In this document: positions 11,133 to 42,157 of the stretch, one piece after another
Layout of the letters: each line of letters opens with the position of its first letter
Position numbering within the stretch: position 1 is the first letter of the stretch
Origin: a bacterium HR11
GTDB taxonomy: Bacteria; Acidobacteriota; HRBIN11
Assembly: GCA_002898535.1 (NCBI GenBank)
Contig: BEHN01000022.1
Span: forward strand, 1 to 42,157
Direction: 5' to 3'
DNA: 42,157 nt
Position numbers and translations under genes: made by a program
Notes under the pieces: generated by a model
Database searches by the model: none
What the model was told of the DNA's origin: nothing
Seen by the model: the letters and a program-made list of their open reading frames with translations, nothing else

Positions 11133-12533
11133 ATGACCGAAACGGTCCGCTACCGGGAACTGGACGTCGGCTTCTTCTGGGCCGCCCTGGCCCTGGCGAC
11201 CCTCGGGGGCTTCGCCCTCGGGGCTTTCCTGGTCTGGCGGATGGCTTGGAGCCAGAACCTGCCGGCCGACCTGGCCGTCTGGATTCAGGTCCACGGCCAC
11301 CTCCAGCTCGTCGGCTGGGCGGGCCTGTTCATCATGGGGGTCAGCCTGTTCTTTCTGCCGAGGCTGGCGGCCACGCCCCTGACCCGGCCGGCGTGGGTCT
11401 CGGCCATCCTGGGCGGGACGGTCGGGGGCCTCCTGCTGGAGACCCTGGCCCGGCTCGTCGGACCCCGGCTCGGGTCGATTTCCTTCAGCGTCGTCCTCGG
11501 ACTTCAGGCCCTCGGGGCGGGCCTGACGGCCTTCGGCATCCTGAGCTACGTGTTCGTCCTGGTCGAGACGTTCTGGCCGAAGCGCCGGAAACAGAACGGG
11601 GCCATCCGACCCGTCGAACCCTTCCTGGCCCTGGTGTTCGTCGGTTGGGGGACTTATGCCGTCGTCCATGGCCTCCTGGCCTTAGCGGCGGTCCGGGACG
11701 GGACGACGCTTTTCCCCATCGCCTGGCACCGGTGGTCCGTCGAGGCTTTCATGGCCCTCACCCTGTTTCCCGTGGCCTATGCGTTCTCGGTCCGGACGTT
11801 CCCCCTCTACCTCCAGACGCCCCTGCCGGGGCCGGGCCTCCGCCGGTGGGGCCTCGGGTACGCCGGGGTCACGGCGGCCGGCCTCCTGGCCTCCATGCCG
11901 GCCGCCGTCGAGCGACTCGGGACGCCGGGCCTCCTCCTGACCGAGGCCCTCCGGCTGGCCTGGGACGGCGTCGTCCTGGGGCTCCTCTGGGACCTGAACC
12001 TCTTCGTGCGGACCCGACCGTCCTGGCTTTCGCCCGACGCCCCTCTCTCGCCCCACCCCCGGACGGGCCAGCCGCCCCGGCGCGGATACTCGGACTACGG
12101 GGAGTTCGGTCGATTCGAGTGGCTCCTGTACTCGGCCTACGCCTGGCTGACGGCGGCCGTCGGCCTGGACGCCGTCGGGGTCGTCCTCGGCTGGACAGGC
12201 CGCAGGGTCCCCTACGGACGGGACCCCGTCCGCCATGCGTTCCTGCTGGGCTTCATCACGCTGTTGATCCTGGGGATGGCCCAGCGGATGCTCCCGGGCT
12301 TCATGCACCGGAAGCGCCTGGCCCATCCGGGCATCGTCGCCTGGACGGCCCTCCTGGGGAACCTCTCGGTCCTCGGGCGGGTCGGTTCCCTCCTGGGGCC
12401 GGCGGCGCCGTGGCCGCCCGTCCGGACTCTTCAAAACGTCGGTCTGGCGTTGTCCGGCCTCCTGGCCCTCGGGGCCGTCTTGCTCCTCGGTTGGAACCTG
12501 GCGGCGACCCGGTACGGAAGGTCGTCGGAGTGA
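11133..12533 (+). CDS. NnrS-like haem-copper type membrane protein
   Basis: A 466-residue protein with about 12 membrane helices. VHGHLQLVGWAGLFIMGVSLFFLPRLA (residues 53-79, quoted in parts: HGHLQLVGW, FIMGVSLFFLPR) resembles the NnrS signature HA.GQL.GW.GLFIMGV..HFLPR. Further His residues sit in AWHRWSVEAF, RHAFLLGF and GFMHRKRLAHPG. NnrS proteins are linked to nitric oxide stress and denitrification; the chemistry is unsettled. It is 56 nt downstream of the duplicated membrane protein, in the same direction. The start is ATG 11133. Confidence 0.8.
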   Translation: MTETVRYRELDVGFFWAALALATLGGFALGAFLVWRMAWSQNLPADLAVWIQVHGHLQLVGWAGLFIMGVSLFFLPRLAATPLTRPAWVSAILGGTVGGLLLETLARLVGPRLGSISFSVVLGLQALGAGLTAFGILSYVFVLVETFWPKRRKQNGAIRPVEPFLALVFVGWGTYAVVHGLLALAAVRDGTTLFPIAWHRWSVEAFMALTLFPVAYAFSVRTFPLYLQTPLPGPGLRRWGLGYAGVTAAGLLASMPAAVERLGTPGLLLTEALRLAWDGVVLGLLWDLNLFVRTRPSWLSPDAPLSPHPRTGQPPRRGYSDYGEFGRFEWLLYSAYAWLTAAVGLDAVGVVLGWTGRRVPYGRDPVRHAFLLGFITLLILGMAQRMLPGFMHRKRLAHPGIVAWTALLGNLSVLGRVGSLLGPAAPWPPVRTLQNVGLALSGLLALGAVLLLGWNLAATRYGRSSE

Positions 12534-12589: not shown

Positions 12590-12735
12590 AATCTCATCAA
12601 TCCGACCACAGACCATAGACCATAGACCTACTTGGGCCCAGGGGGTCTATGGTCCATGGTCCATGGTCCGTGGTCTGGGGTCTGTGGTCTAATATCGAGG
12701 GTCCGATCCCGGCCCGTCGGATTTATGAGACTGGT
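12590..12735. repeat. GGTCTAT heptad hairpin flanked by TCTCATCAATCC inverted ends
   Basis: The left arm has ACCACAG, ACCATAG and ACCATAG units; the right arm GGTCTAT, GGTCCAT, GGTCCAT, GGTCCGT, GGTCTGG, GGTCTGT. Outside these, TCTCATCAATCC (12594-12605) and GGATTTATGAGA (12719-12730) are inverted. The right flank ATCGAGGGTCCGATCCCGG recurs inverted at the 31838 locus. Confidence 0.88.
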
Positions 12736-13160
12736 TGGCTCCGTTGATAGCCTCTTCAGGCTTCTGGGGAGGCCCGGAGGCCCTGGGCCCGCCGAAGAGA
12801 GCCCAAAAAATCAGATGGGATGGACGCCGCCGTCACCGGCGGCGCCGGGACCGAGGGACGCCGGCATGACGGCCGGCGTTCGGATGAGATGGACGCCGCA
12901 GGGGGCTTTGAGACGATGGCGCAGGGATGTCAACAGAGCCAGATTGGTTCAAATGACAAAGGGCTGTGTCGCCGCCACGCCCCGGACCGATGGTGGGCCT
13001 CGCATGGCCGGTCTTGGCCCACAGCCGATGGCTCATGGGAATCGGCCCGTGACCCCTTGGAAGGTCCGAACCCATGGTCCATGACCCTCAGGATAGACGG
13101 ATTCATCCCGGCGTCGAAATGCAGAAGTGCCCCGCCGCTTCCGGCGTTCACGAGGCCGCC
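12736..13160. other. Gene-free stretch with REP-like palindromes
   Basis: No credible gene: reading frames here are short and cross repeat DNA. It contains palindromes at 12824-12846 and 12858-12879 and short ATGGCTC/ATGGTCC heptad traces around 13024-13085. The rest is unassigned. Confidence 0.6.
12824..12879. repeat. Two REP-like palindromes
   Basis: The ACGCCGCC...GGCGGCGCC palindrome at 12824-12846 and ACGCCGGCATGACGGCCGGC at 12858 belong to the same CATGAC-loop family as those at 13877-14031 and 29683. Confidence 0.75.
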
Positions 13161-13807: not shown

Positions 13808-14156
13808 TAACAGAGCCGTTCGGTGGGGGGAAATGTTGCTCCCATCCGGGAAAACGGTGGCCCGGCGACCTCGATGACACCGCCATGACGGGCGGTGTTC
13901 AGAGGGGATCTGACACCGCCATGGCTGGCGGTGTTCGGAGGGGATCGACCCGGCCAGGACGGGCGGTGCATGCGGAGGACGCCCGCAGGACAGCGGGCTC
14001 TCTACGGAAGCCACCGGCATGACGGCCGGTGTGCTGGTCTCCCGACCTGCCCATCTGCCGACTGCCCATCTGCCGAATACTTGAAACATCGCGCTTTCGC
14101 GGAGGTGCCCTTTCCACTCTCCACCTCACTTCTCACCTCCCGAACCACTCTGATAA
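13808..14156. mobile_element. MITE-like element, copy E (about 349 bp)
   Basis: The left end TAACAGAGCCGTTCGG is at 13808 and the right end CGAACCACTCTGATAA closes at 14156. The interior holds four REP-like palindromes and octads around CTGCCCAT/CTGCCGAC (14041-14075). The 13652-14205 gap has no gene. Confidence 0.7.
13877..14031. repeat. Cluster of four REP-like palindromes
   Basis: ACACCGCCATGACGGGCGGT (13877), ACACCGCCATGGCTGGCGGT (13913), a degraded copy at 13949-13970, and CACCGGCATGACGGCCGGTG (14012). Arms change together (CCGCC/GGCGG versus CCGGC/GCCGG) while the ATGAC loop is kept. GCCCGC/GCGGGC at 13981-13999 is a further small hairpin. Confidence 0.82.
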
Positions 14157-14205
14157 GCGAGACTTGGACGAAGGGATTAGATAAAGGGGAACCGTTCTGT
14201 TCGTC

Positions 14206-32104: not shown

Positions 32105-33679
32105 GTGTGGCGGCCGGTGCGATGGGTCGGGTCGATCGGCCTCGCGTTCGGCCTGTCGGGTAGCGTGGCCCATGCGATGGCCTGTATGACGCCGGAGCTT
32201 CGGGCCTCGGTCGCCGCCGTCTATCGGCAGGCGTACGAGGGCTTTCTGGACGGAGCCCTGGCGGCCATGCGGGAGCTGGCCGACCGGTCACCGGACTGTC
32301 CCATCTTGCAGGCCTACTGGAGCGACCTCCTGCAGTGGCAACTCCTGAATCGCTGGATTCATGAGGACGTCCGCCGCGACGTCGAGGAAGCCTTCCAGAC
32401 GGCGACCGACCGGGTCATCCGCCAGGCCCGGAAGCGGCGGCCCGACCGGGTCCACGACCCGGAGGAGGCCTTTGCCTATGCGGCCGCTTACCTGCTCCGG
32501 GCGCAGTGGTACGGCTTCCTGGAGCGCTGGTGGAGCGTCGTCGAACCCCTCCGTCGGGGCAAGGCCTGGCTGGACCGGGCCTACGAACTGGACCCCCGGC
32601 GGCCGGAGGTCCAGTACTACATGGGCGTGTATCTTTACGTCCTGGACCGTTCTTCGTGGGTCTTTCATGTCCTGCGGTGGCTCCTGGCGATCCCGGGCGG
32701 CGACCGGGCCCGGGCGTGGGGCCTCCTCGAGCAGGCCCTCTCCCGTCCCGGTCCCCTGCAAGGCGAGATGCGCGTCGTCGCGACCGGTTTCCTCCAGTAC
32801 GAGGGCCGCTGGCTGGAGGCCCTGGACCAGCTCCGGCAGATTCGAACCGACTATCCGGAAAACCCGTTCTTCCACTTCTGGGAGGGCCTCTTCTACGAAC
32901 GGGTCGCCGTCGATTACGAGCGGGCCTTTCAGGTCTATCAGGCCATCTGGGAGCGGGCTCGGTCCGGGGCCGACCCGCGCTATAATCGTTGGGTCGCCTT
33001 TCAGGCCCGGTACCGGATGGGTTACGCCGCCTATAAGCTGTTCCGTTTTCACGATGCCGAGCAGTACTTTCGGGATGTCCTGGCGATGAACGACCGGGAC
33101 CCCCCGTGGGTCATCCCGTGGACCTACCTGGCATTGGGGAATCTTTACCGGGACTGGGGCCGGTTCGATCAGGCCCGAGACGCTTACAGTCGGGTCTTGC
33201 AACTGCCCCCCGTCGTGGACGCCCGGGCCCGGGCCTCGGCGGCCTTGCGGGAGGACTATACGGTGCCTTACTGGCAGGTTTACCCTCGCTACGTACAGGG
33301 CCGGGTCCGGCTGGCGGAGCGCTCGATCGCCGAGGGCTGTGCCTACTTTGAGCGGTGGCGGTCGACGGCCGACGACCCCGTCGCCCGTCTGGGCCTGGGC
33401 GAGTGCAGTCTGGCCCGGGGCGATACGACGGCGGCCCTTCAGCACTTCCAGGCCGCCGTGAGCCTGGCCGGCGGTCCCGGCATGAGCTGGGCTCAGGCGA
33501 AGGCCGCCCTCTATCTGGGGATGCTCTACGAGGCATCGGCTCGGGACAAGGCCCGTCAGTACTACACCCAGGTCCGGGCCTACCCCCAGGTCCCCTGGGA
33601 CATCGCCCAGGCCGCCGCCTTCCGAAAGGCCCGTTTGGAACACGTCGGAGGTGCCGGTGAAGTTCACACCGCCCCCTGA
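32105..33679 (+). CDS. Exported TPR-repeat protein
   Basis: A 524-residue protein with a signal peptide (VGSIGLAFGLSGSVAHA) and, over residues 50-510, repeated helix pairs of TPR type (EVQYYMGVYLYVLDRSS, FQARYRMGYAAYKLFRFHDAE, PWTYLALGNLYRDWGRFDQA, VARLGLGECSLARGDTTAAL). It is probably periplasmic and binds other proteins. The start is GTG 32105 with GGAGGT 7 nt before it. Its 3' end overlaps the DUF4388 gene by 23 nt, so the two are cotranscribed. Function unknown. Confidence 0.85.
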   Translation: MWRPVRWVGSIGLAFGLSGSVAHAMACMTPELRASVAAVYRQAYEGFLDGALAAMRELADRSPDCPILQAYWSDLLQWQLLNRWIHEDVRRDVEEAFQTATDRVIRQARKRRPDRVHDPEEAFAYAAAYLLRAQWYGFLERWWSVVEPLRRGKAWLDRAYELDPRRPEVQYYMGVYLYVLDRSSWVFHVLRWLLAIPGGDRARAWGLLEQALSRPGPLQGEMRVVATGFLQYEGRWLEALDQLRQIRTDYPENPFFHFWEGLFYERVAVDYERAFQVYQAIWERARSGADPRYNRWVAFQARYRMGYAAYKLFRFHDAEQYFRDVLAMNDRDPPWVIPWTYLALGNLYRDWGRFDQARDAYSRVLQLPPVVDARARASAALREDYTVPYWQVYPRYVQGRVRLAERSIAEGCAYFERWRSTADDPVARLGLGECSLARGDTTAALQHFQAAVSLAGGPGMSWAQAKAALYLGMLYEASARDKARQYYTQVRAYPQVPWDIAQAAAFRKARLEHVGGAGEVHTAP

Positions 33680-35294
33680 TCACGGTACGTTAGACACTTC
33701 CTACATCGCCGACGTCCTGGCCGCCCTCTACCGGTCCGGCCGGACGGGTGCCCTTCGGGTCGAGAAGGGCGTCTTCTTGAAAACTCTCTACGTCCAGGAC
33801 GGTCAGGTCGCTTACGCCTCGTCGAATGCCCAGTCGGACCGTCTCGGCGAGGTCCTCGTCCGCCACGGGCTCCTGACGCCGGAGCAGTTGGATGATGCGA
33901 TGAAGCGCCTCCAGCCGGACGTATCCCTCGGGAAAGTCCTCGTCCAACTGGGGTACCTGTCCCCGAAGGAGCTCGTCCAGGGCGCCCACCTCCAGGTGGC
34001 GGCCGTCGTCGACAGCCTCTTTCAGTGGACCGAAGGCGCGTACCACTTCATGGAGGGGCCCCTGCCGAAGCAGGTCGTGAACCTCCACATTCCCCTGCCG
34101 GCCCTCGTCTTGGAGTATACGGCCCGCCATGCGCCGGTCGCCTGGGTCCGGCGGTACCTGCCCGAGGACCACGAAGCCCGGGCCAGCCTGCTGGAGACCT
34201 TCTATCGGGTCCAGCCGGAGATGACCCTGCCCGCGGAAATCGAGGAAGTCTTCACGTGGCTGGACGGTCGGTCGACGGTCGAGGAGATCGCCGCTCAGAC
34301 GGGCCGGGAGGCTTTCTTTATCGCCAAGGTCGTCGTCGGCCTCGGCGTCCTGGGCCTTGCCGAGGTGACCCTCACGCCCCGTCCGGTCTCGGTCCCCGAG
34401 ACAGTCCCGGCCCAACCGGAACCCCAGACGGAGGCGATCCCGGCCCCGGCCGAGACCCTGCGCGTGGCTTCGCCCGAGCCGGCGGAGGTTCCCCCTCCCG
34501 CGCCCGAGCCAGTCCGGCCGTCGGAGGCGCCGCCGTCTCCGACGCCGCCTTTCACCGGCGTCGTCACCGTGCCCCAGCGTCGTTACCGCCGGCGGGCCGT
34601 CGCCGCCGTCCGGCTTCGACGGCTGGCCATCGCCGTCTTTCTGGCCGTCCTGGCCGTCGGCCTGTCGGGCCTGGCCCTTTGGGTCTGGCGCCAGGGTCGT
34701 TCGCCTCAACCCGCCTTTACGGAGGTCCCGACGGCGCGGCCGTCGCCCCCGCCGATGCCGCCGGCACCGTCCCCGGTCGCTCCGACCTCTCAAGAGGCGA
34801 CGAAGCCGTCTCCGACAGCCCCCCCGTCCTCGCCGCCGGCCGAGGCGCCAGCCCCGGCACCGTCACCGACGTCCCCGCCTGCGCCCGCACCGTCCGGGCC
34901 CGTGACGGTCGAGACCCAGGCGCCGTCCGTCCCCGGCCCGGGTCCGGAAGTCGCTCGCCTGATTGAACAAGGGGAACTCCCGACGGCGGCCCGCCGGTCG
35001 TCCGAATGGCTCCGCCGGCAGGACCCGCAGGCCTGGACCGTTCAGGTCGAGCTGGCCTGTCGGGCCGAGACCGTCTTGCAGGCCCTCCGGCAGGTCCGGA
35101 ATCCCGGGCAGATGTACGTCCTGCCGAAGTCCTTTCGGGGCCAGCCGTGTTACGTCATCGGGTACGGCGTTTTCTCCGACCCCGCCGCCGCCGAGGAGGC
35201 CCGCCGGACCCACCTCTCTGAGGAGCTTCTCCGTCAGCCGAGCCCGCCGCGCGTCCTCTCCGTCCGCCAGATCCTTCAACTGGTGGGAAAGTGA
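33657..35294 (+). CDS. DUF4388 protein with membrane helix and SPOR-like C-terminus
   Basis: A 545-residue multi-domain protein. Residues about 8-175 are DUF4388/PATAN-like (LDTSYIADVLAALYRSGRTG, FLKTLYVQDGQVAYASS, LGEVLVRHGLLTPEQLD). Residues about 180-240 form a winged-helix-like segment (TWLDGRSTVEEIAAQTG). A Pro-rich stretch, one membrane helix (about 325-347) and a second Pro/Ala/Ser-rich stretch (350-425) follow. The C-terminal 80 residues (QMYVLPKSFRGQPCYVIGYG, FSDPAAAEEARR) resemble a SPOR-like peptidoglycan-binding fold. GTG 33657 is preferred to GTG 33651 by Shine-Dalgarno spacing. It could link cytoplasmic signalling to the cell wall. Confidence 0.8.
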   Translation: MKFTPPPDHGTLDTSYIADVLAALYRSGRTGALRVEKGVFLKTLYVQDGQVAYASSNAQSDRLGEVLVRHGLLTPEQLDDAMKRLQPDVSLGKVLVQLGYLSPKELVQGAHLQVAAVVDSLFQWTEGAYHFMEGPLPKQVVNLHIPLPALVLEYTARHAPVAWVRRYLPEDHEARASLLETFYRVQPEMTLPAEIEEVFTWLDGRSTVEEIAAQTGREAFFIAKVVVGLGVLGLAEVTLTPRPVSVPETVPAQPEPQTEAIPAPAETLRVASPEPAEVPPPAPEPVRPSEAPPSPTPPFTGVVTVPQRRYRRRAVAAVRLRRLAIAVFLAVLAVGLSGLALWVWRQGRSPQPAFTEVPTARPSPPPMPPAPSPVAPTSQEATKPSPTAPPSSPPAEAPAPAPSPTSPPAPAPSGPVTVETQAPSVPGPGPEVARLIEQGELPTAARRSSEWLRRQDPQAWTVQVELACRAETVLQALRQVRNPGQMYVLPKSFRGQPCYVIGYGVFSDPAAAEEARRTHLSEELLRQPSPPRVLSVRQILQLVGK

Positions 35295-35426
35295 GGCCCG
35301 GCGGACTCCCATCGGGGCCTCCCGCTATGGCCCCCTTTCCGAATCCCCAATCCCCTTTTCATCAAGCCGCATGGACTCTCAGGGACGGCCCTGAACGAGA
35401 GGGACGAGGGCGCCGCTCCCGGAGAC

Positions 35427-36581
35427 ATGCGGGATATGGCACGCGACCGCGTTGTTCCTGACCGCCCAACCCTATCCGGCTCGAATCGGCGGGAACCGGG
35501 GTCCTCCCTCAGACCCCACCGCCGGGCCTTCCGGCCGACGGGCGACACCGGTCGGTCCCGTCGGTCTCGCGCTCTCCCTTTAGATCAGCGGTGGACGCTG
35601 GTCCGCCTCTTGGACCAGGCCCTCCGATTTGGCGTCTCGGTCCCCGACGTATTCCAGAGTCTGGCGCCGCCGGGTCGACTGGGCGAGACGATGCGTCGGA
35701 TGGCCACGGCGATGATGGAGGGCGCGGCCCTCTGGGAGGTCCTCCGGGACGCGGGGTTTGAGCCCGATGAAGTCGTGAGCGTTCGAGCCGCCGAGGCCAC
35801 CGGTCAATTCGACCGGCTGATCCCGTCCCTGGTCCGGCGAATGGAGCTGAAGCGGTCGGTCCGGCGGAGCGTCCGGGCCGCCCTGGGACGGCAGGTCCTG
35901 ACCCTGGTCCTGGCCAGCGTGACGGTCTGGGTCTTGGCCGAGCACTTTCTGCCGGCGGTCGTGGCGGTCGTCCACGAGGTCGGCGGGACGGTGCCGGCAT
36001 GGTGTGTCGGCGTCCTTCGCCTGGGTCAGTGGGGCTTGCCGGGGATCGTCGGGATGACGGTCCTGGCCTGGTGGGCCGCCGGGCGGGCTCCCGCAAGGCT
36101 TCAGAGATGGGCCGACGCCTGGGTCGGCCGCGTGCCGGGCTTGCGGCGGGTCGTCTTCGAGATGGACTGGGGGCAGGCTTTCCTGACGGCCGCCGCCGGC
36201 GAGCAGGCCGGCGTGGGGTCGGGCCGGGCCTGGGCCCTGGCCGCCCGGGCCTGCCGGACGGCCCGTGTCCGCCGGGCCTGTCAGCGTCTCGCCGACTATC
36301 TCCAGGAGGCCCCGATGGCGATGGACCTCCGAGGGGTTCTTCAAGAGGCGGGCTTTCCGGCGATGGACGCCCTGGCCGTCCGGACGGCCTTGCGGACGGG
36401 CGGCGTGGCGGGTGTCCTGGACGAGCTCGGGGAGGCCCACATGCGCCAGGCGGCGGCGTCCGCCGAGGCCCTGCAGGACGTCCTGGCGGACGCCGTCCTG
36501 GTCGCCGTCGGCCTCCTGGTGGCGGCCATCGTGCTCGGCGGCTACGTGCCCCTCTTTCGGGCTTATGGCCGTCTCGGATGA
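35427..36581 (+). CDS. GspF/PilC-like type II secretion inner-membrane protein
   Basis: A 384-residue protein with two GspF-type domains: residues about 55-185 (LVRLLDQALRFGVSVPDVFQ) and 245-375 (WGQAFLTAAAGEQAGVGSG), each followed by hydrophobic helices, three long ones in all (VLTLVLASVTVWVLAEHF, GLPGIVGMTVLAWWAAG, DAVLVAVGLLVAAIVLGGYV). The N-terminal 50 residues are Arg/Ser/Pro-rich and look poorly ordered; ATG 35436 is an alternative start. Its TGA overlaps the ATG of the ATPase gene. It is the platform protein of a type IV pilus or type II secretion relative. Confidence 0.82.
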   Translation: MRDMARDRVVPDRPTLSGSNRREPGSSLRPHRRAFRPTGDTGRSRRSRALPLDQRWTLVRLLDQALRFGVSVPDVFQSLAPPGRLGETMRRMATAMMEGAALWEVLRDAGFEPDEVVSVRAAEATGQFDRLIPSLVRRMELKRSVRRSVRAALGRQVLTLVLASVTVWVLAEHFLPAVVAVVHEVGGTVPAWCVGVLRLGQWGLPGIVGMTVLAWWAAGRAPARLQRWADAWVGRVPGLRRVVFEMDWGQAFLTAAAGEQAGVGSGRAWALAARACRTARVRRACQRLADYLQEAPMAMDLRGVLQEAGFPAMDALAVRTALRTGGVAGVLDELGEAHMRQAAASAEALQDVLADAVLVAVGLLVAAIVLGGYVPLFRAYGRLG

Positions 36582-38539
36582 TGAGGTGGGCCGTGCAGGT
36601 CGCCTTTCTCGTTTACGAATGCATGGCCGAGTGGAGGCCGGCGTCGTCGGTCGAATGCTGGATCTGCGGGCACGGGACGCCGCTCGTCGTCGAGGGGATC
36701 CCCCTGTGCCTGGGGTGCCTGCTGGCGACCCGAGGGCTCCGCACGGGCCGGCCGCCGGGACCGGCCAGCGCCTACATGTATCCGTCCATCGTCGGCGAGG
36801 CCCTCCCGGACGCCGGCTGGCAGGCCGTCGCCCTCCGTCAGGCCGAGCTTCTCTCCCCGACGGCGGGTCCGGTCTGTCCGTATGAAGTCGAGCGGGTCGC
36901 CTTGACCCGGGTATTCGGCCCGGTCGATGTGGCCCGCCTGCTGAGGCTTCCCCTCGAGGCCGACCGGCCGGCGGCGCCCCTGCCGGTATCGGTCCGCCGT
37001 CTCTGGCCCCTCGAACGGGCCCGGTCGACGGGGATCGTCCCCGTCGAGGCGGTCCTCCAGGGAAGCGGTCGAATTCGCCTGACGCTGGCGGGTCTGCCGG
37101 CCGAGGGGGACCTGGCCGACCTGCTGGAGGCCTGCGCCCTGCAGGTCGCGGAGCTGACGGTGCAGATGACGGCCCTGGACCCCCGCCAGGAACGGGAAGC
37201 CCTCCTGACGTGCCTGTACACGGAGGGCCTGCCCCGGCGGATCGCCCTGCCGGCCGACCGACCGTCGTCCCCCCCGACGGACGGCGTCTCGTCTTGGGAG
37301 ACCCGAGCCGTTCCGATTGACCCCCAGGCGATTCAGCCGACGGTTCGCTCCGGGGCCGAATCCGTCCGGGTCCTGATTCTGGAGGCCTACCGGCAGGGCG
37401 CGTCCGACATTCACGTCGAGCCCTATCCGATGGAGGACGGCTGGGGGACTCGCATCCGATTTCGGGTCGACGGCCTCCTGCAGGACGTCCTGCGGGTCCG
37501 GGAGCCCCTTTGGCAGTCCATCGGTCAGGCCCTCAAGCACCTGTGCCGCATGACGGCCGGCGTGGCCCTGGCGCCCCGGGACGGGAGCTTCACGGCGGAC
37601 CTCGAGGGGACGCCGGTCCACCTGCGGGTGAGCATCATTCCGGCGGGACCCGAAGCGGGCGGGGAGAGCGCCGTCATCCGCATCCTTCAGCAGGACATGC
37701 TCCGGTACACGTGGGCGGAGCTGGGCCTGATGGGTCCGGCCTGGGAAGCCCTCGAGGCGGCCCTCCGGGAGCCCTGGGGGATGGTCGTCGTCGCCGGTCC
37801 GACGGGGAGCGGCAAGTCCACGACGTTTCACAAGCTCGTCCAGCGGCTCCCGGCTCATTTTAAGGTCCTGACCGTCGAGGACCCCATCGAGTACGTCCAT
37901 CCCGGCATCGTCCAGTGTCAGGTCTCCGAGCACATGTCCTTTGCGTGCGCCGTCCGGGCCTTTCTGCGACAGGACCCGGACGTCATCCTCGTCGGCGAGG
38001 TCCGGGACGCCGAGACGGCCCGGGCCGCCCTGGAAGCGGCCTCGACGGGCCACCTCGTCCTGACGACCGTCCACGCCCATACGGCCCTGCAGGTCGTGGA
38101 CCGTCTGGAGCGGATGGACCTGGACCGGGCCTGGGTCGCTCGCGTCCTGCGGGTCGTCGCCACGCAGGAGCTGGTCCGGCGGCCCTGTCCCCACTGCGGC
38201 GAGTGGGCGTCTCCCGAAGAGGTCGTGCATCCGGCCCTGCAGGTCCGCATCCGGGAGGCCGGTGTCGGTCGGGTCTGGGTCGGACGGGGATGCTCCCGTT
38301 GCGCCGGCCGGGGCTTGGCCCGGGGTGGGGGCCTCACTCGAGTGCCCGTGCTTTCGACGGTGACGGTCTCCGACGACGTGCGGTTAGCCATCGAGGCCCG
38401 GCGCCGGCCGGGTGAGGTCCTCCGGGTCTGCATCGCGGCCGGCGGCTACGTATCCCGGTGGGAGAGCGCCCTCTTTCTGACGGGCCGTCGCCTGCTGGAC
38501 GGCCGTTACCTGAACGTCCTGGGGGGCGACGATGTTTGA
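36578..38539 (+). CDS. GspE/PilB-like secretion ATPase with N-terminal zinc-ribbon-like motif
   Basis: A 653-residue ATPase. The C-terminal half has ASDIHVEPYP, Walker A GPTGSGKSTT, the VEDPIEY Asp box, Walker B DPDVILVGEVRDAETARAAL and TGHLVLTTVHAHTA, then the tetracysteine CPHCGEW...CSRCAGRG. The N-terminus has a C-x2-C-x13-C-x2-C pattern (Cys27, 30, 44, 47; CWICG and CLGC) where GspE/PilB normally carry an alpha-helical MshEN/T2SSE-N domain; whether the 100-300 region contains a diverged version is unclear. The open frame upstream to 35999 is out-of-frame with the gspF-like gene. Confidence 0.88.
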   Translation: MMRWAVQVAFLVYECMAEWRPASSVECWICGHGTPLVVEGIPLCLGCLLATRGLRTGRPPGPASAYMYPSIVGEALPDAGWQAVALRQAELLSPTAGPVCPYEVERVALTRVFGPVDVARLLRLPLEADRPAAPLPVSVRRLWPLERARSTGIVPVEAVLQGSGRIRLTLAGLPAEGDLADLLEACALQVAELTVQMTALDPRQEREALLTCLYTEGLPRRIALPADRPSSPPTDGVSSWETRAVPIDPQAIQPTVRSGAESVRVLILEAYRQGASDIHVEPYPMEDGWGTRIRFRVDGLLQDVLRVREPLWQSIGQALKHLCRMTAGVALAPRDGSFTADLEGTPVHLRVSIIPAGPEAGGESAVIRILQQDMLRYTWAELGLMGPAWEALEAALREPWGMVVVAGPTGSGKSTTFHKLVQRLPAHFKVLTVEDPIEYVHPGIVQCQVSEHMSFACAVRAFLRQDPDVILVGEVRDAETARAALEAASTGHLVLTTVHAHTALQVVDRLERMDLDRAWVARVLRVVATQELVRRPCPHCGEWASPEEVVHPALQVRIREAGVGRVWVGRGCSRCAGRGLARGGGLTRVPVLSTVTVSDDVRLAIEARRRPGEVLRVCIAAGGYVSRWESALFLTGRRLLDGRYLNVLGGDDV

Positions 38540-39566
38540 ATGGCAGGTCGAAGCGGTCCTTGAAGATCACGGCCACGGTCGTGTCGAGCGGGTCCGGGAC
38601 GCCCGGACGGGCCTGACGTATGTCCGAACCGTCGGGTCCCGAGACGACCGCTGGAATCCCGAATTCCTGGGGGTCCTCCGAGAAGTCCCCGGCTTCCCGA
38701 CCCTGCTGTATGTAGAGACGGACGGGACGGACCTCGCTGCGGTCGCCCGACCCGTGACGGGCCTGAACCTCTTGGAAATCTGCGGACGCATCCGAATGGT
38801 CGAGGGCTTGGGGTCGGGTGTCCTTTTACCGGTCCCCGTGACGGTCGTCGTCGTACGGGCCATCGTCCGGAGCCTGATGGTCCTCCACCGGCATCGCTAT
38901 GTGTACCGGGCCCTCCATCCCCGATGGGTCGTCGTCGACCCGACGAGTGAGCGGGTCTGGCTGACCCGACCCGGGTGCGTCGCTCCCTTGGGAGATGCCG
39001 CCGGAGACGTGCCGAACGCCGACCCGGCACCCGACGTCGCCGGATGCCTTCACGAGCTGACGCCGCCCGAATGGAAAGTCGGGTCCTATACGCCGGCCTG
39101 GGACGCCTTCGCCGTCGGGGGCCTGATGGCCTTCTGCGTCACGGGCCAGTACCCTCAGCGGATGGACCCGGCAGGCCGGCCTGTGTTTGTTCGTCGGGAG
39201 GTCACGGCCCTCGTCGACGCGGCGGTCGAGCGGCTCCGGACGGCCCAGGCCCCGGAGCTGGGTCCCATCCTGGAGGGAACGCTTCGGGAGGACCCCCAGG
39301 AGCGGGCATCGCTTCCCGTCGTTCACGAACAGATCGTCGGCTTCCTCGTCCGGCACCGTATCAGCGAGACTTGCGTATGGCTGGCCCTGGGTCGCCTCGC
39401 CCCGGTTTCGGGGGTCCCGCCGGCGACCTATGCCCGGGCCTGGCAGTACGTGCGCCACGGCTGGCCCATCCCTCCGACGCCGACCCCCGAGACGTCCGCG
39501 CCGGCCCCATCGGAGGCAGACCTGCGGCCCTCCTGGCGGCAACGACTTCGAGCTCTATTCCCGTGA
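38532..39566 (+). CDS. Degenerate protein-kinase-fold protein (probable pseudokinase)
   Basis: A 344-residue protein overlapping the ATPase gene by 8 nt. The layout follows a Ser/Thr kinase: a hinge-like VARPVTGLNLLEICGRI, SLMVLHRHRYVYRALHPRWVVVD in the position of the catalytic loop (L.H..giVHRDLKP..iLvd), VWLTRPG where DFG is expected, then PPEW and YTPAWDAFAVGGLMAFCVTG like the APE and DVYALGVLLYELLTG helix. The HRD aspartate is replaced (YRA, residues 125-127) and DFG by RPG, and no VAIK lysine is clear. It is probably catalytically dead and a regulator of the secretion ATPase; this is inference. Confidence 0.62.
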   Translation: MFEWQVEAVLEDHGHGRVERVRDARTGLTYVRTVGSRDDRWNPEFLGVLREVPGFPTLLYVETDGTDLAAVARPVTGLNLLEICGRIRMVEGLGSGVLLPVPVTVVVVRAIVRSLMVLHRHRYVYRALHPRWVVVDPTSERVWLTRPGCVAPLGDAAGDVPNADPAPDVAGCLHELTPPEWKVGSYTPAWDAFAVGGLMAFCVTGQYPQRMDPAGRPVFVRREVTALVDAAVERLRTAQAPELGPILEGTLREDPQERASLPVVHEQIVGFLVRHRISETCVWLALGRLAPVSGVPPATYARAWQYVRHGWPIPPTPTPETSAPAPSEADLRPSWRQRLRALFP

Positions 39567-39622: not shown

Positions 39623-40864
39623 CTACTCCGTCCGGATGGACTTCCGGAGGCGGGAGACCGTGGCGACCGAGACGGTCACCGAAAATTGTTCCCGCAGAAA
39701 GTCCCGGATCTGCTGGAGACTCATCGAGGGATTCAGCTGAAGGAGCACGCGAAGCTCCTGCCGAATCTCCCGCAGGGGGAGCGGGACGAGCCGCCGTCGG
39801 TTCGGGAGGTAGTCCCAGCCCAGGAGGTACCACAAGGGCTCGATCGTCTGGTCGGGGAGGAGGCAGAGGGCGTGGAGCACGGCGTGGTGCCGCCGGGGCG
39901 GTCGGAAAGCGGCCAGCCGCCGCAGGCCTGTTTGACCCCGCAGGAAGGGACCATTGGCCGTCAGGGCGGCCCGACAGGCTTCCGTCAGGAGTCTCTTTCG
40001 GAGCTGGACCATGACCTGGTAGTGCCGGACCGGCGCCGTCGGGTCCCGGAAACCGGCCTCCGTCAGGAGGATCGTGGCCGTCTCTTGACCGCCCGGCGTG
40101 TGCAGACCCGGCGTGTACACGACGGGCTCCAGCGTGTCCCCGACTTCGACGAGGAGGACGTCCGGCACGATAAATCGGGGGACGGCTATCGAGGCACTTG
40201 GCACCGGTGCCACGGGTCGGGTCCCGTGCTGGCGAAGGGCCGTCTGCAGGAGGGCTCGACGGTCGGGCCGGTGGTCCAGCCAGTCCAGTAGGGCGGCCAG
40301 GACCTTCTCTTCTTGGGTCGCGGCGTCCGGGACCGTCTGGAGGACGGCCGTGATGCGGCCGGCCAGACCTGCCAGGTCGGGCGAGCCGGTCCGGTCTGCC
40401 AGGTAATCGAACATGTGGAGCCAGCCGACGCCGCACGTCGCTTGCAAGCGGCGTCGGGCCCGGGCGACCTCCGGCAGGGGAATCCCCGTCTGGCGGGCCA
40501 GCGTGGCATCGTCTTCCCGAAGGAAACCCTCCGGCGTCAAGAAGGGGAGGAGTTCCAGGGCGAACAGCGTCTCATCGCCCGGCGGGAGTTCGGCCAGACG
40601 CTGACGGCAGGTCTGCACGAGGCCCTCCGGCTCGACGTCCGGGACGTCGCCCTCGATGAAGCACGGCCAGCCGCTCGGGGGTCGAACCCGGACGCCGAGA
40701 GGACTGTAGAGGGCGACGTACTCGAAGAAGTGGGTGACCGGCCCGATGAGCCGGCTCGTGAAGGCCCGCAGGGTCAGACGGACGGCTTGGGGTATCACGG
40801 CGGGCCGGACCGCCGCGCTGGCCTGCACCCGAGGCGACAGCTTGACCTGAAGCCCTAACCGCAT
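39623..40864 (-). CDS. Strongly diverged sigma-54 (RpoN)-like protein
   Basis: A 413-residue protein. The start MRLGLQVKLSPRVQ and following hydrophobic/Gln segment resemble RpoN region I; ELLPFLTPEGFLREDDATLA with GIPLPEVARARRRLQ resembles the core-binding LDEDGYL...LGVS.EEVE.AL..LQ. VPDVLLVEVGD, RKRLLTEACRAALTANGPFL and SLQQIRDFLREQF fit the later core-binding, HTH and C-terminal regions. The RpoN box (ARRTVAKYR) is replaced by SVATVSRLRKSI. It is about 70 residues shorter than typical RpoN. Its ATG lies inside the end of the activator gene. Assignment rests on order of weak motifs plus the coupled sigma-54 activator. Confidence 0.6.
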   Translation of the reverse strand: MRLGLQVKLSPRVQASAAVRPAVIPQAVRLTLRAFTSRLIGPVTHFFEYVALYSPLGVRVRPPSGWPCFIEGDVPDVEPEGLVQTCRQRLAELPPGDETLFALELLPFLTPEGFLREDDATLARQTGIPLPEVARARRRLQATCGVGWLHMFDYLADRTGSPDLAGLAGRITAVLQTVPDAATQEEKVLAALLDWLDHRPDRRALLQTALRQHGTRPVAPVPSASIAVPRFIVPDVLLVEVGDTLEPVVYTPGLHTPGGQETATILLTEAGFRDPTAPVRHYQVMVQLRKRLLTEACRAALTANGPFLRGQTGLRRLAAFRPPRRHHAVLHALCLLPDQTIEPLWYLLGWDYLPNRRRLVPLPLREIRQELRVLLQLNPSMSLQQIRDFLREQFSVTVSVATVSRLRKSIRTE

Positions 40865-42015
40865 CCCAGCGACTCCACCTGCTTGCGGAGGAAGGGGTGG
40901 CGTAGGCTCGAGACCGTGACGGTCGCCTCGGCCGGGACGGTCTCGGCGACGGCATGCAGGAAGTGAATGAGCTGGCGGACGTTACCGGGAAATCGGCATC
41001 CCAGGAGGAACTCATAGAAACCTGCGTCGGCCGTGCGGCCCAGCCGATGGGTCAAGACGTAATGCGTGATGGCGACCACGTCGGCCGGCCGCTCCCGCAG
41101 GGGCGGGCACTCGATATAGAAGTGCATGAGCCGGTACAGGAGGTCCGGCCGGACCCGGCTGAGACGCTCGGCCGACGTGGCGGCGATGAACCGACAGCGC
41201 ACCCGGACGGGTTCGTCCTCCCCCAGGCGCTGGACTTCTCCCCGGTCCACGGCCCGCAGGAGGACGCTCTGATACTCGGCCGGCAGGTCCCCGATCTCGT
41301 CCAAAAACACGATACCGTCCCCGGCGGCGGCCATCACGCCCGGCCGGTCGACGGCCCCCGTGAACGAACCGGCCCGGGCCCCGAAGAGATGAACCGGGAC
41401 GACCTCCGGCGGGAGGCCCGAAATCAGGACGGGGACAAGACGCCGACCGGCCCGACGGGCGATCAGCTTGGCCAGGACTTCTTTACCCGTACCCGTCTCC
41501 CCGACGATCAGGACGGGCGCCGTCGGGTTCGCCACGACGGACCGCTCGATGTACCGCACGACCTGCCGCATCCCGTCGTCGGCGACGACCAGCGTGTCCT
41601 GGGCGTCGATGGGAACGACCGTATAGGCTTGCCGGAGGTCGTCCCCGACGAGGGCGACAGCCTCATCCTCGTCGGCAGGCGGCGGTTCGGGCCGTCGGGC
41701 CGTCAGGCCCGCCAGGAACCCGTTGAGGAAGCTCTCCAGCTCGGCGGCCGAGCGGTCCGACTCCAGATAGACCTGAATGACCTCGTCTTTGTACACGATG
41801 CCGTGAAGAGTCCCCTTCTGGAAGGTCGTCCCGCCACGCCGGGCATTCTGCACGTAGGGGCGGACCTCCCGTTCGTCGGCGACGTTTGAGAGACAGGTCC
41901 CGTCCGGCAGGCGGATCCAGTAACGCCGGACGAAAGAAGTCAGGTCCAGCCCCATGCCCCGTAGCCCCTGGGGAGCATATCCCGGGCTTTCATCGTATCT
42001 TTCGACCCGCCCCAT
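40855..42015 (-). CDS. Sigma-54 interacting AAA+ activator lacking a DNA-binding domain
   Basis: A 386-residue protein. Residues 20-105 are an unrecognised N-terminal domain; residues about 145-385 are the AAA+ core with Walker A GETGTGKE (172-179), the sigma-54 contact loop GSFTGA (216-221, GAFTGA in most), Walker B GIVFLDEI (234-241), PPLRERP (304-310) and FPGNVRQL (342-349). It ends at ESLGCG without a Fis-type helix-turn-helix, so it must act from solution or through partners. GGAGG lies 8 nt upstream of ATG 42015. Its last codons contain the start of the sigma-54-like gene. Confidence 0.88.
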   Translation of the reverse strand: MGRVERYDESPGYAPQGLRGMGLDLTSFVRRYWIRLPDGTCLSNVADEREVRPYVQNARRGGTTFQKGTLHGIVYKDEVIQVYLESDRSAAELESFLNGFLAGLTARRPEPPPADEDEAVALVGDDLRQAYTVVPIDAQDTLVVADDGMRQVVRYIERSVVANPTAPVLIVGETGTGKEVLAKLIARRAGRRLVPVLISGLPPEVVPVHLFGARAGSFTGAVDRPGVMAAAGDGIVFLDEIGDLPAEYQSVLLRAVDRGEVQRLGEDEPVRVRCRFIAATSAERLSRVRPDLLYRLMHFYIECPPLRERPADVVAITHYVLTHRLGRTADAGFYEFLLGCRFPGNVRQLIHFLHAVAETVPAEATVTVSSLRHPFLRKQVESLGCG

Positions 42016-42016
42016 G

Positions 42017-42157
42017 TCAAAGTCCTCCTTGGCCGCTGAGCTCTCTGAGGTCCAGCATGGAGCCCCCCGCCCAGCCGGGCCGGGTGTACGTCCGGCCCGT
42101 CCCGCCGATCTCGACGGCCCCCGCCGCGAGAAACCCGAGGACCACGACGACCGCCGC
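42017..42157 (-). CDS. C-terminal fragment of an unknown membrane-linked protein (runs off window)
   Basis: On the minus strand the last 46 codons of a frame enter from the right edge and stop one base before the activator start. The fragment begins with a hydrophobic AAVVVVLGFLAAGAV and continues with Gly-rich EIGGTGRTYTRPGWAGGS. No family can be assigned. Tight spacing suggests an operon with the activator. Confidence 0.45.
   Translation of the reverse strand, partial: AAVVVVLGFLAAGAVEIGGTGRTYTRPGWAGGSMLDLRELSGQGGL

Follow-up and report, generated by a model that had tools for sequence, protein, structure and literature searches.

The locus at the contig end

The window analysed here makes up one whole contig (G000:C22, 42,157 bp) from a 95% complete genome of 2.99 Mb in 49 contigs. 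At its right end, on the minus strand, two open reading frames overlapping by 10 nt encode an ATPase of the sigma-54 activator type (P0002) and, downstream of it, a protein related to sigma-54 itself, as judged by profile comparison (P0001); their positions, which the preliminary description of this DNA had given correctly together with the overlap, are collected in Table 1 with those of their recognisable parts.

Table 1. Coordinates in the window of the gene pair, of its component parts and of the gene preceding it.
Feature	Position	Strand	Basis
Further upstream gene, tail, 46 aa visible, cut by the contig end	42017..42157	-	translation
P0002, sigma-54-type activator ATPase, 386 aa	40855..42015	-	Pfam and motif comparison
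GSFTGA loop of P0002 (L1, sigma-54 contact)	41350..41370	-	translation
P0001, diverged RpoN (sigma-54) paralogue, 413 aa	39623..40864	-	profile comparison, global alignment, BLASTP
Region-I-like N-terminus of P0001, LQVKLSPRVQASAAVRPAVIPQAVRL	40774..40855	-	local score, alignment
First half of the core-binding domain, residues 79-154, best conserved segment	40402..40630	-	shuffles, model
Second core-binding segment, containing the PDV motif of RpoN, around RFIVPDVLLVEVGDT	40141..40185	-	HMM-HMM alignment
-12 helix-turn-helix, approximate position, now RPPRRHHAVLHALCLLPDQ	39815..39918	-	alignment with 33 RpoNs
C-terminal domain of three helices, including the degenerate RpoN box SVATVSRLRK	39629..39775	-	HMM-HMM alignment, pLDDT

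The inner ATG, which is the start codon of P0001, has AGGTGGAG upstream of it. Since the visible tail of the preceding frame stops 1 nt ahead of the P0002 start codon, the two genes probably belong to an operon of three or more genes, which the contig end truncates; no contig continuing past position 42157 was identified by end overlap, and the genome context ends there. The GC contents at the three codon positions, 0.75/0.48/0.84 in P0001 and 0.74/0.46/0.83 in P0002, are those of real genes of a high-GC genome. A scan of the whole window for the -24/-12 pattern gave no excess above chance.

P0001 and the sigma-54 family

Neither the three Pfam models of RpoN (PF00309, PF04963, PF04552) nor TIGR02395 matched P0001 up to E=10, and the protein went unrecognised as an RpoN in searches of Pfam, NCBIfam, PDB sequences and PHROGs, where its best match was the weak and generic HTH_32; its likeness to RpoN lies below the detection limit of all four collections. 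The relationship appears in direct comparisons: BLASTP against the genome's own RpoN gave E=6e-5 over residues 79-140, residues 79-147, within the core-binding domain, reached a score of 75 that none of 2000 shuffles equalled, and the mean global-alignment z against four RpoNs was 5.08, the 94 unrelated real proteins used as controls having a mean of 0.4 and a maximum of 1.79. The HMM-HMM comparison with 33 RpoNs of the phylum, which the preliminary description had proposed as a check on its reading of 39623-40864 as RpoN-like, supported that reading (P=4.6e-6; score 50.7, rank 1, the best of 219 unrelated control proteins scoring 33.5); it also bore out the order of the motifs, the alignment being collinear over 295 columns from the core-binding domain to the RpoN-box helix. 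The homology lies close to what can still be detected, because with a stock comparison tool and a smaller alignment of 18 RpoN sequences only P=4.7e-4 was obtained, over 57 columns of the core-binding segment.

Structure prediction, also proposed earlier, answered in part. The AlphaFold model built from the single sequence was too poor (pLDDT 42) for its fold search to have any meaning; the model built with an alignment of viral RpoNs reached pLDDT 76-91 over residues ~80-150, and its best 27 PDB matches were all sigma-54, in a test that is partly circular because the input alignment contained RpoNs and that serves as supporting evidence only.

The silence of the four collections, with HTH_32 as the best and weak match, and the modest result of the smaller profile are what would be expected if the product of 39623-40864 were an unrelated DNA-binding protein, helical in build, whose resemblance to RpoN is fortuitous. 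Two WYL-type regulators (L046 and L047) sharing the string WYLLGWDY might be quoted to the same end; however, this string was itself the search pattern, and they were rejected as relatives for this selection bias. Such mimicry is very improbable, given that P0001 stands far outside the background in two independent sets of real-protein controls, that the similarity is collinear over most of its length and that its gene adjoins that of a sigma-54 activator, a neighbourhood of which the homology test made no use. On these comparisons P0001 can be regarded as a real, extremely diverged homologue of RpoN.

The degree of divergence, which had been surmised earlier, differs from part to part, 24 of the 91 strongly conserved columns being kept in the alignment with 33 RpoNs. 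The N-terminus resembles region I of the genus's own RpoN (LQQKLVPTVRLDLRPLLIQAVRL) through the pattern LQ.KL.P.V...RP..I.QAVRL, a weak similarity whose local score of 40 was equalled in 12 of 2000 shuffles, and the linker from region I to the core-binding domain is short. In canonical sigma-54, the RpoN box serves recognition of the -24 element, the helix-turn-helix (HTH) that of the -12 element, and the GAFTGA loop of the activator contacts region I (reviewed in PMC7057263). The -12 HTH of P0001 is unrecognisable, the consensus MHESTVSRVVxNKYMHTP being replaced by the segment given in Table 1, and the RpoN box is degenerate, as had been noted: the consensus ARRTVAKYRE has become SVATVSRLRK, which in the alignment stands opposite SRRAVTKYRL in the canonical RpoN of this genome, with the helix position kept, RR replaced by VA and both arginines gone. 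Because both signatures are lost, recognition of canonical promoters by P0001 is unlikely as far as its residues tell. The C-terminal domain still appears to fold, residues 361-412 being predicted with pLDDT ~70-87 even from the single sequence, and its last helix bears polar and basic residues. The tree branch of P0001 measures ~10 changes per site, a saturated divergence that leaves it unplaceable in the tree.

A complete canonical rpoN lies on another contig (G000:C2); it encodes 475 aa, scores 413.7 bits with TIGR02395 (cut-off 277) and lies between genes resembling lptB, hpf and ptsN, in the usual lptB-rpoN-hpf-ptsN-like context. P0001 is therefore not the only RpoN of the lineage, an objection that the preliminary description had raised against itself, and this copy would be free to specialise. 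RpoN core-binding domains were found in 380 of 396 sampled genomes of the phylum. The canonical RpoN of the genus (L001:568-1995, L083, L084) is itself unusual in region I, having VRLDLRPLLIQAVRL where TPSLQQAIKLL is expected; the three congeners carry almost the same protein, although its branch in the tree is long (2.0 changes per site).

The activator ATPase and its possible partner

P0002 matches the Pfam family Sigma54_activat with E=4.6e-37 and consists of an N-terminal domain, an AAA+ core and a lid; the AAA_lid_14 match extends to residue 379 of 386, leaving 7 residues to the C-terminus, and no C-terminal HTH or other DNA-binding domain was matched in Pfam. The N-terminal 138 aa match no Pfam family, the response-regulator receiver domain included. 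Two weak matches to this N-terminus were judged spurious, one (L095) because it lies on the strand opposite a pyruvate phosphate dikinase-like gene and the other (L096) because it is a match of 33 residues. The sigma-54 contact loop reads GSFTGA, a variant of the GAFTGA of bacterial enhancer-binding proteins (bEBPs); Walker A (GETGTGKE), Walker B (GIVFLDEIGD), both arginine fingers (VRPDLLYRL) and the sensor-II arginine (FPGNVRQ) are present. The genome has ~20 activator-domain matches. Of 59 positions that do not vary among 14 of its other activators, P0002 retains 40, and each of the 14 retains 55-59 of ~60; by this measure P0002 is an aberrant activator with its catalytic motifs intact.

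From the GSFTGA loop the preliminary description had concluded that a sigma-54 partner exists. The loop is there in the translation of 40855-42015, but alone it is no proof of a private partner, since the activator could equally be served by the canonical RpoN. The open reading frames, the profile comparison of P0001 and the Pfam matches of P0002 do uphold the description of the locus as a translationally overlapping pair in which a strongly diverged RpoN homologue accompanies a sigma-54-type ATPase without a DNA-binding domain.

The reading preferred here starts from what can be read in the sequence (RpoN homology, loss of DNA-reading residues, gene overlap, ATPase motifs, a missing DNA-binding domain and a canonical rpoN elsewhere) and adds polymerase binding, mutual pairing and a new promoter specificity, all of which we infer: P0001 and P0002 may constitute a private pair of sigma-54 and dedicated activator, co-translated within one operon and acting at non-standard promoters, a proposal to which we give somewhat less than an even chance. 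The core-binding domain of P0001 would still let it dock on core RNA polymerase; P0002, devoid of a DNA-binding domain, would reach it from solution, touch region I of P0001 by way of the GSFTGA loop and use ATP to remodel the complex; the helix-turn-helix at the C-terminus of P0001, being rewritten, would steer the complex to promoters unlike the -24 GG/-12 GC type. In favour of this reading, both halves have drifted (24 of 91 conserved positions kept in P0001, 40 of 59 in P0002).

An altered reading of DNA and no reading of DNA fit the sequence of P0001 equally well, and the main rival is therefore a decoy or modulator that does not bind DNA and restrains the activator or the canonical RpoN, P0002 serving the latter. 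Such a decoy would bind core polymerase, the activator or both by means of what is left of its core-binding and region-I parts. The parts of P0001 that would contact polymerase and activator are those still recognisable, both DNA-reading elements being lost; GSFTGA would also suit the canonical RpoN of the genome, which is common to ~20 other activator-type matches. A pure decoy would, however, have no need of the C-terminal three-helix fold, kept with fair confidence, or of its polar and basic last helix, and we regard this explanation as unlikely, though it deserves to be kept in mind. The private pair could also be taken further, as a self-contained module in which a sigma factor and an ATPase acting from solution diverged together and serve a promoter class unlike -24/-12; this wider proposal is to be considered doubtful.

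Precedents cover each part of the proposed pair separately, as far as analogy goes. With canonical RpoN (TIGR02395; PF00309-PF04963-PF04552), P0001 shares, in collinear order, the core-binding segment, the PDV strand and the C-terminal helical domain, preceded by an N-terminus that weakly resembles region I; it differs in falling under every curated cut-off, in its short linker and in the loss of the -12 HTH and of the RpoN-box arginines. The RpoN paralogues of Cereibacter sphaeroides keep readable RpoN domains, and xrpA has a sigma-54 consensus promoter, whereas the DNA-reading parts of P0001 are rewritten and its gene overlaps that of P0002; the likeness is that an additional RpoN is present, perhaps committed to a single activator. 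Each of the C. sphaeroides paralogues studied so far has one cognate activator, the pairs being RpoN1-NifA, RpoN2-FleQ and RpoN3-AprX (PMC11999139). An RpoN without HTH, as P0001 apparently is, has been described in Neisseria meningitidis, where most sigma-N proteins have lost the HTH and, unlike P0001, kept the RpoN box; the passages concerned mention neither an activator gene overlapping theirs nor that they are additional rpoN copies (PMC6755734). The group 5 bEBPs FlgR and CtcC are, like P0002, sigma-54 activator ATPases without a DNA-binding domain, but have response-regulator N-termini (PMC7175178, PMC7482065), whereas the N-terminal domain of P0002 matches no Pfam family and an RpoN-like gene adjoins it.

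Sigma-54 is noted for a very conserved promoter code; if the proposed pair is real, P0001 would show that this code can change, and the pair would offer a natural test of the contributions of region I, HTH and RpoN box. Paralogues of this kind can escape standard annotation, as no library model finds P0001.

Distribution and the genomic break point

The preliminary description had suggested that the pair be sought in other genomes; protein searches found it neither in two congeners nor in 396 genomes of the phylum, and no relative of P0001 turned up in phage, plasmid and viral-contig collections. The weak matches to P0001 seen repeatedly within the genus are the canonical RpoNs. Of P0001 and of the N-terminal region proper to P0002 there is no trace in the congeners G001 (90% complete) and G002 (87% complete), where other activators alone were matched, and the pair is likely absent from both.

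Among the remaining candidates, a weak RpoN-box match on G004:C352 was rejected: it is a protein (L085:2542-3474) built from several repeated units resembling the RpoN-box HTH, ending in VTKHRKALGIPN, beside a TPR-like protein, and is no RpoN. About 22 viral contigs of IMG/VR (L137-L159) encode a compact RpoN of ~430 aa, in which region II is shortened while HTH and RpoN box are intact; flanks of up to 3 kb contained no GAFTGA activator, and two of these RpoNs together with two neighbours had no PHROG match. They are possibly phage-borne sigma-54 factors, on putatively viral contigs.

The neighbour of P0001, a kinase-like protein encoded at 38532-39566, has a 77% identical counterpart in G001. 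At the DNA level, similarity to G001 runs up to the stop codon of the kinase gene and ends precisely there, and the gene order differs beyond it, so that the pair lies at a rearrangement break relative to this congener. In G001 the kinase is adjoined, in opposite orientation, by the cytochrome-type genes found at 11133-12533 of the window, which suggests an inversion with its break exactly at the kinase stop codon.

The position at this break, the absence from two congeners and the many conserved positions gone from both proteins would suit functionless relics under relaxed selection, namely a degenerate rpoN duplicate beside a degenerate activator. Neutral drift that deep should, however, have erased the frames and the codon-position composition, and relic status is for this reason less likely: the frames are intact, the overlap is preserved, the composition is normal despite saturated divergence and the catalytic motifs of P0002 are complete. 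Open frame and coding composition at such divergence argue for selection on the protein, and we consider the relics improbable.

Some features of the surrounding DNA may also be recorded. A block at 33651-39566, convergent with the sigma/activator pair, encodes a DUF4388 protein, a T2SSF-like protein, a T2SSE ATPase and the degenerate protein-kinase-like protein, and is possibly a secretion or pilus system; in the comparison of 12531-39566 with the corresponding locus of the congener (L081, on G001:C167), the kinase/T2SSE block is flipped relative to the cytochrome-type genes. Short dispersed repeats occupy 12650-12900 and 13870-14170, some of them on palindromic GACGCCGxCATGACGGCCGGCGT-like units; G001 has ~70 places matching them and G002 very few, and they possibly represent a proliferating REP-like element.
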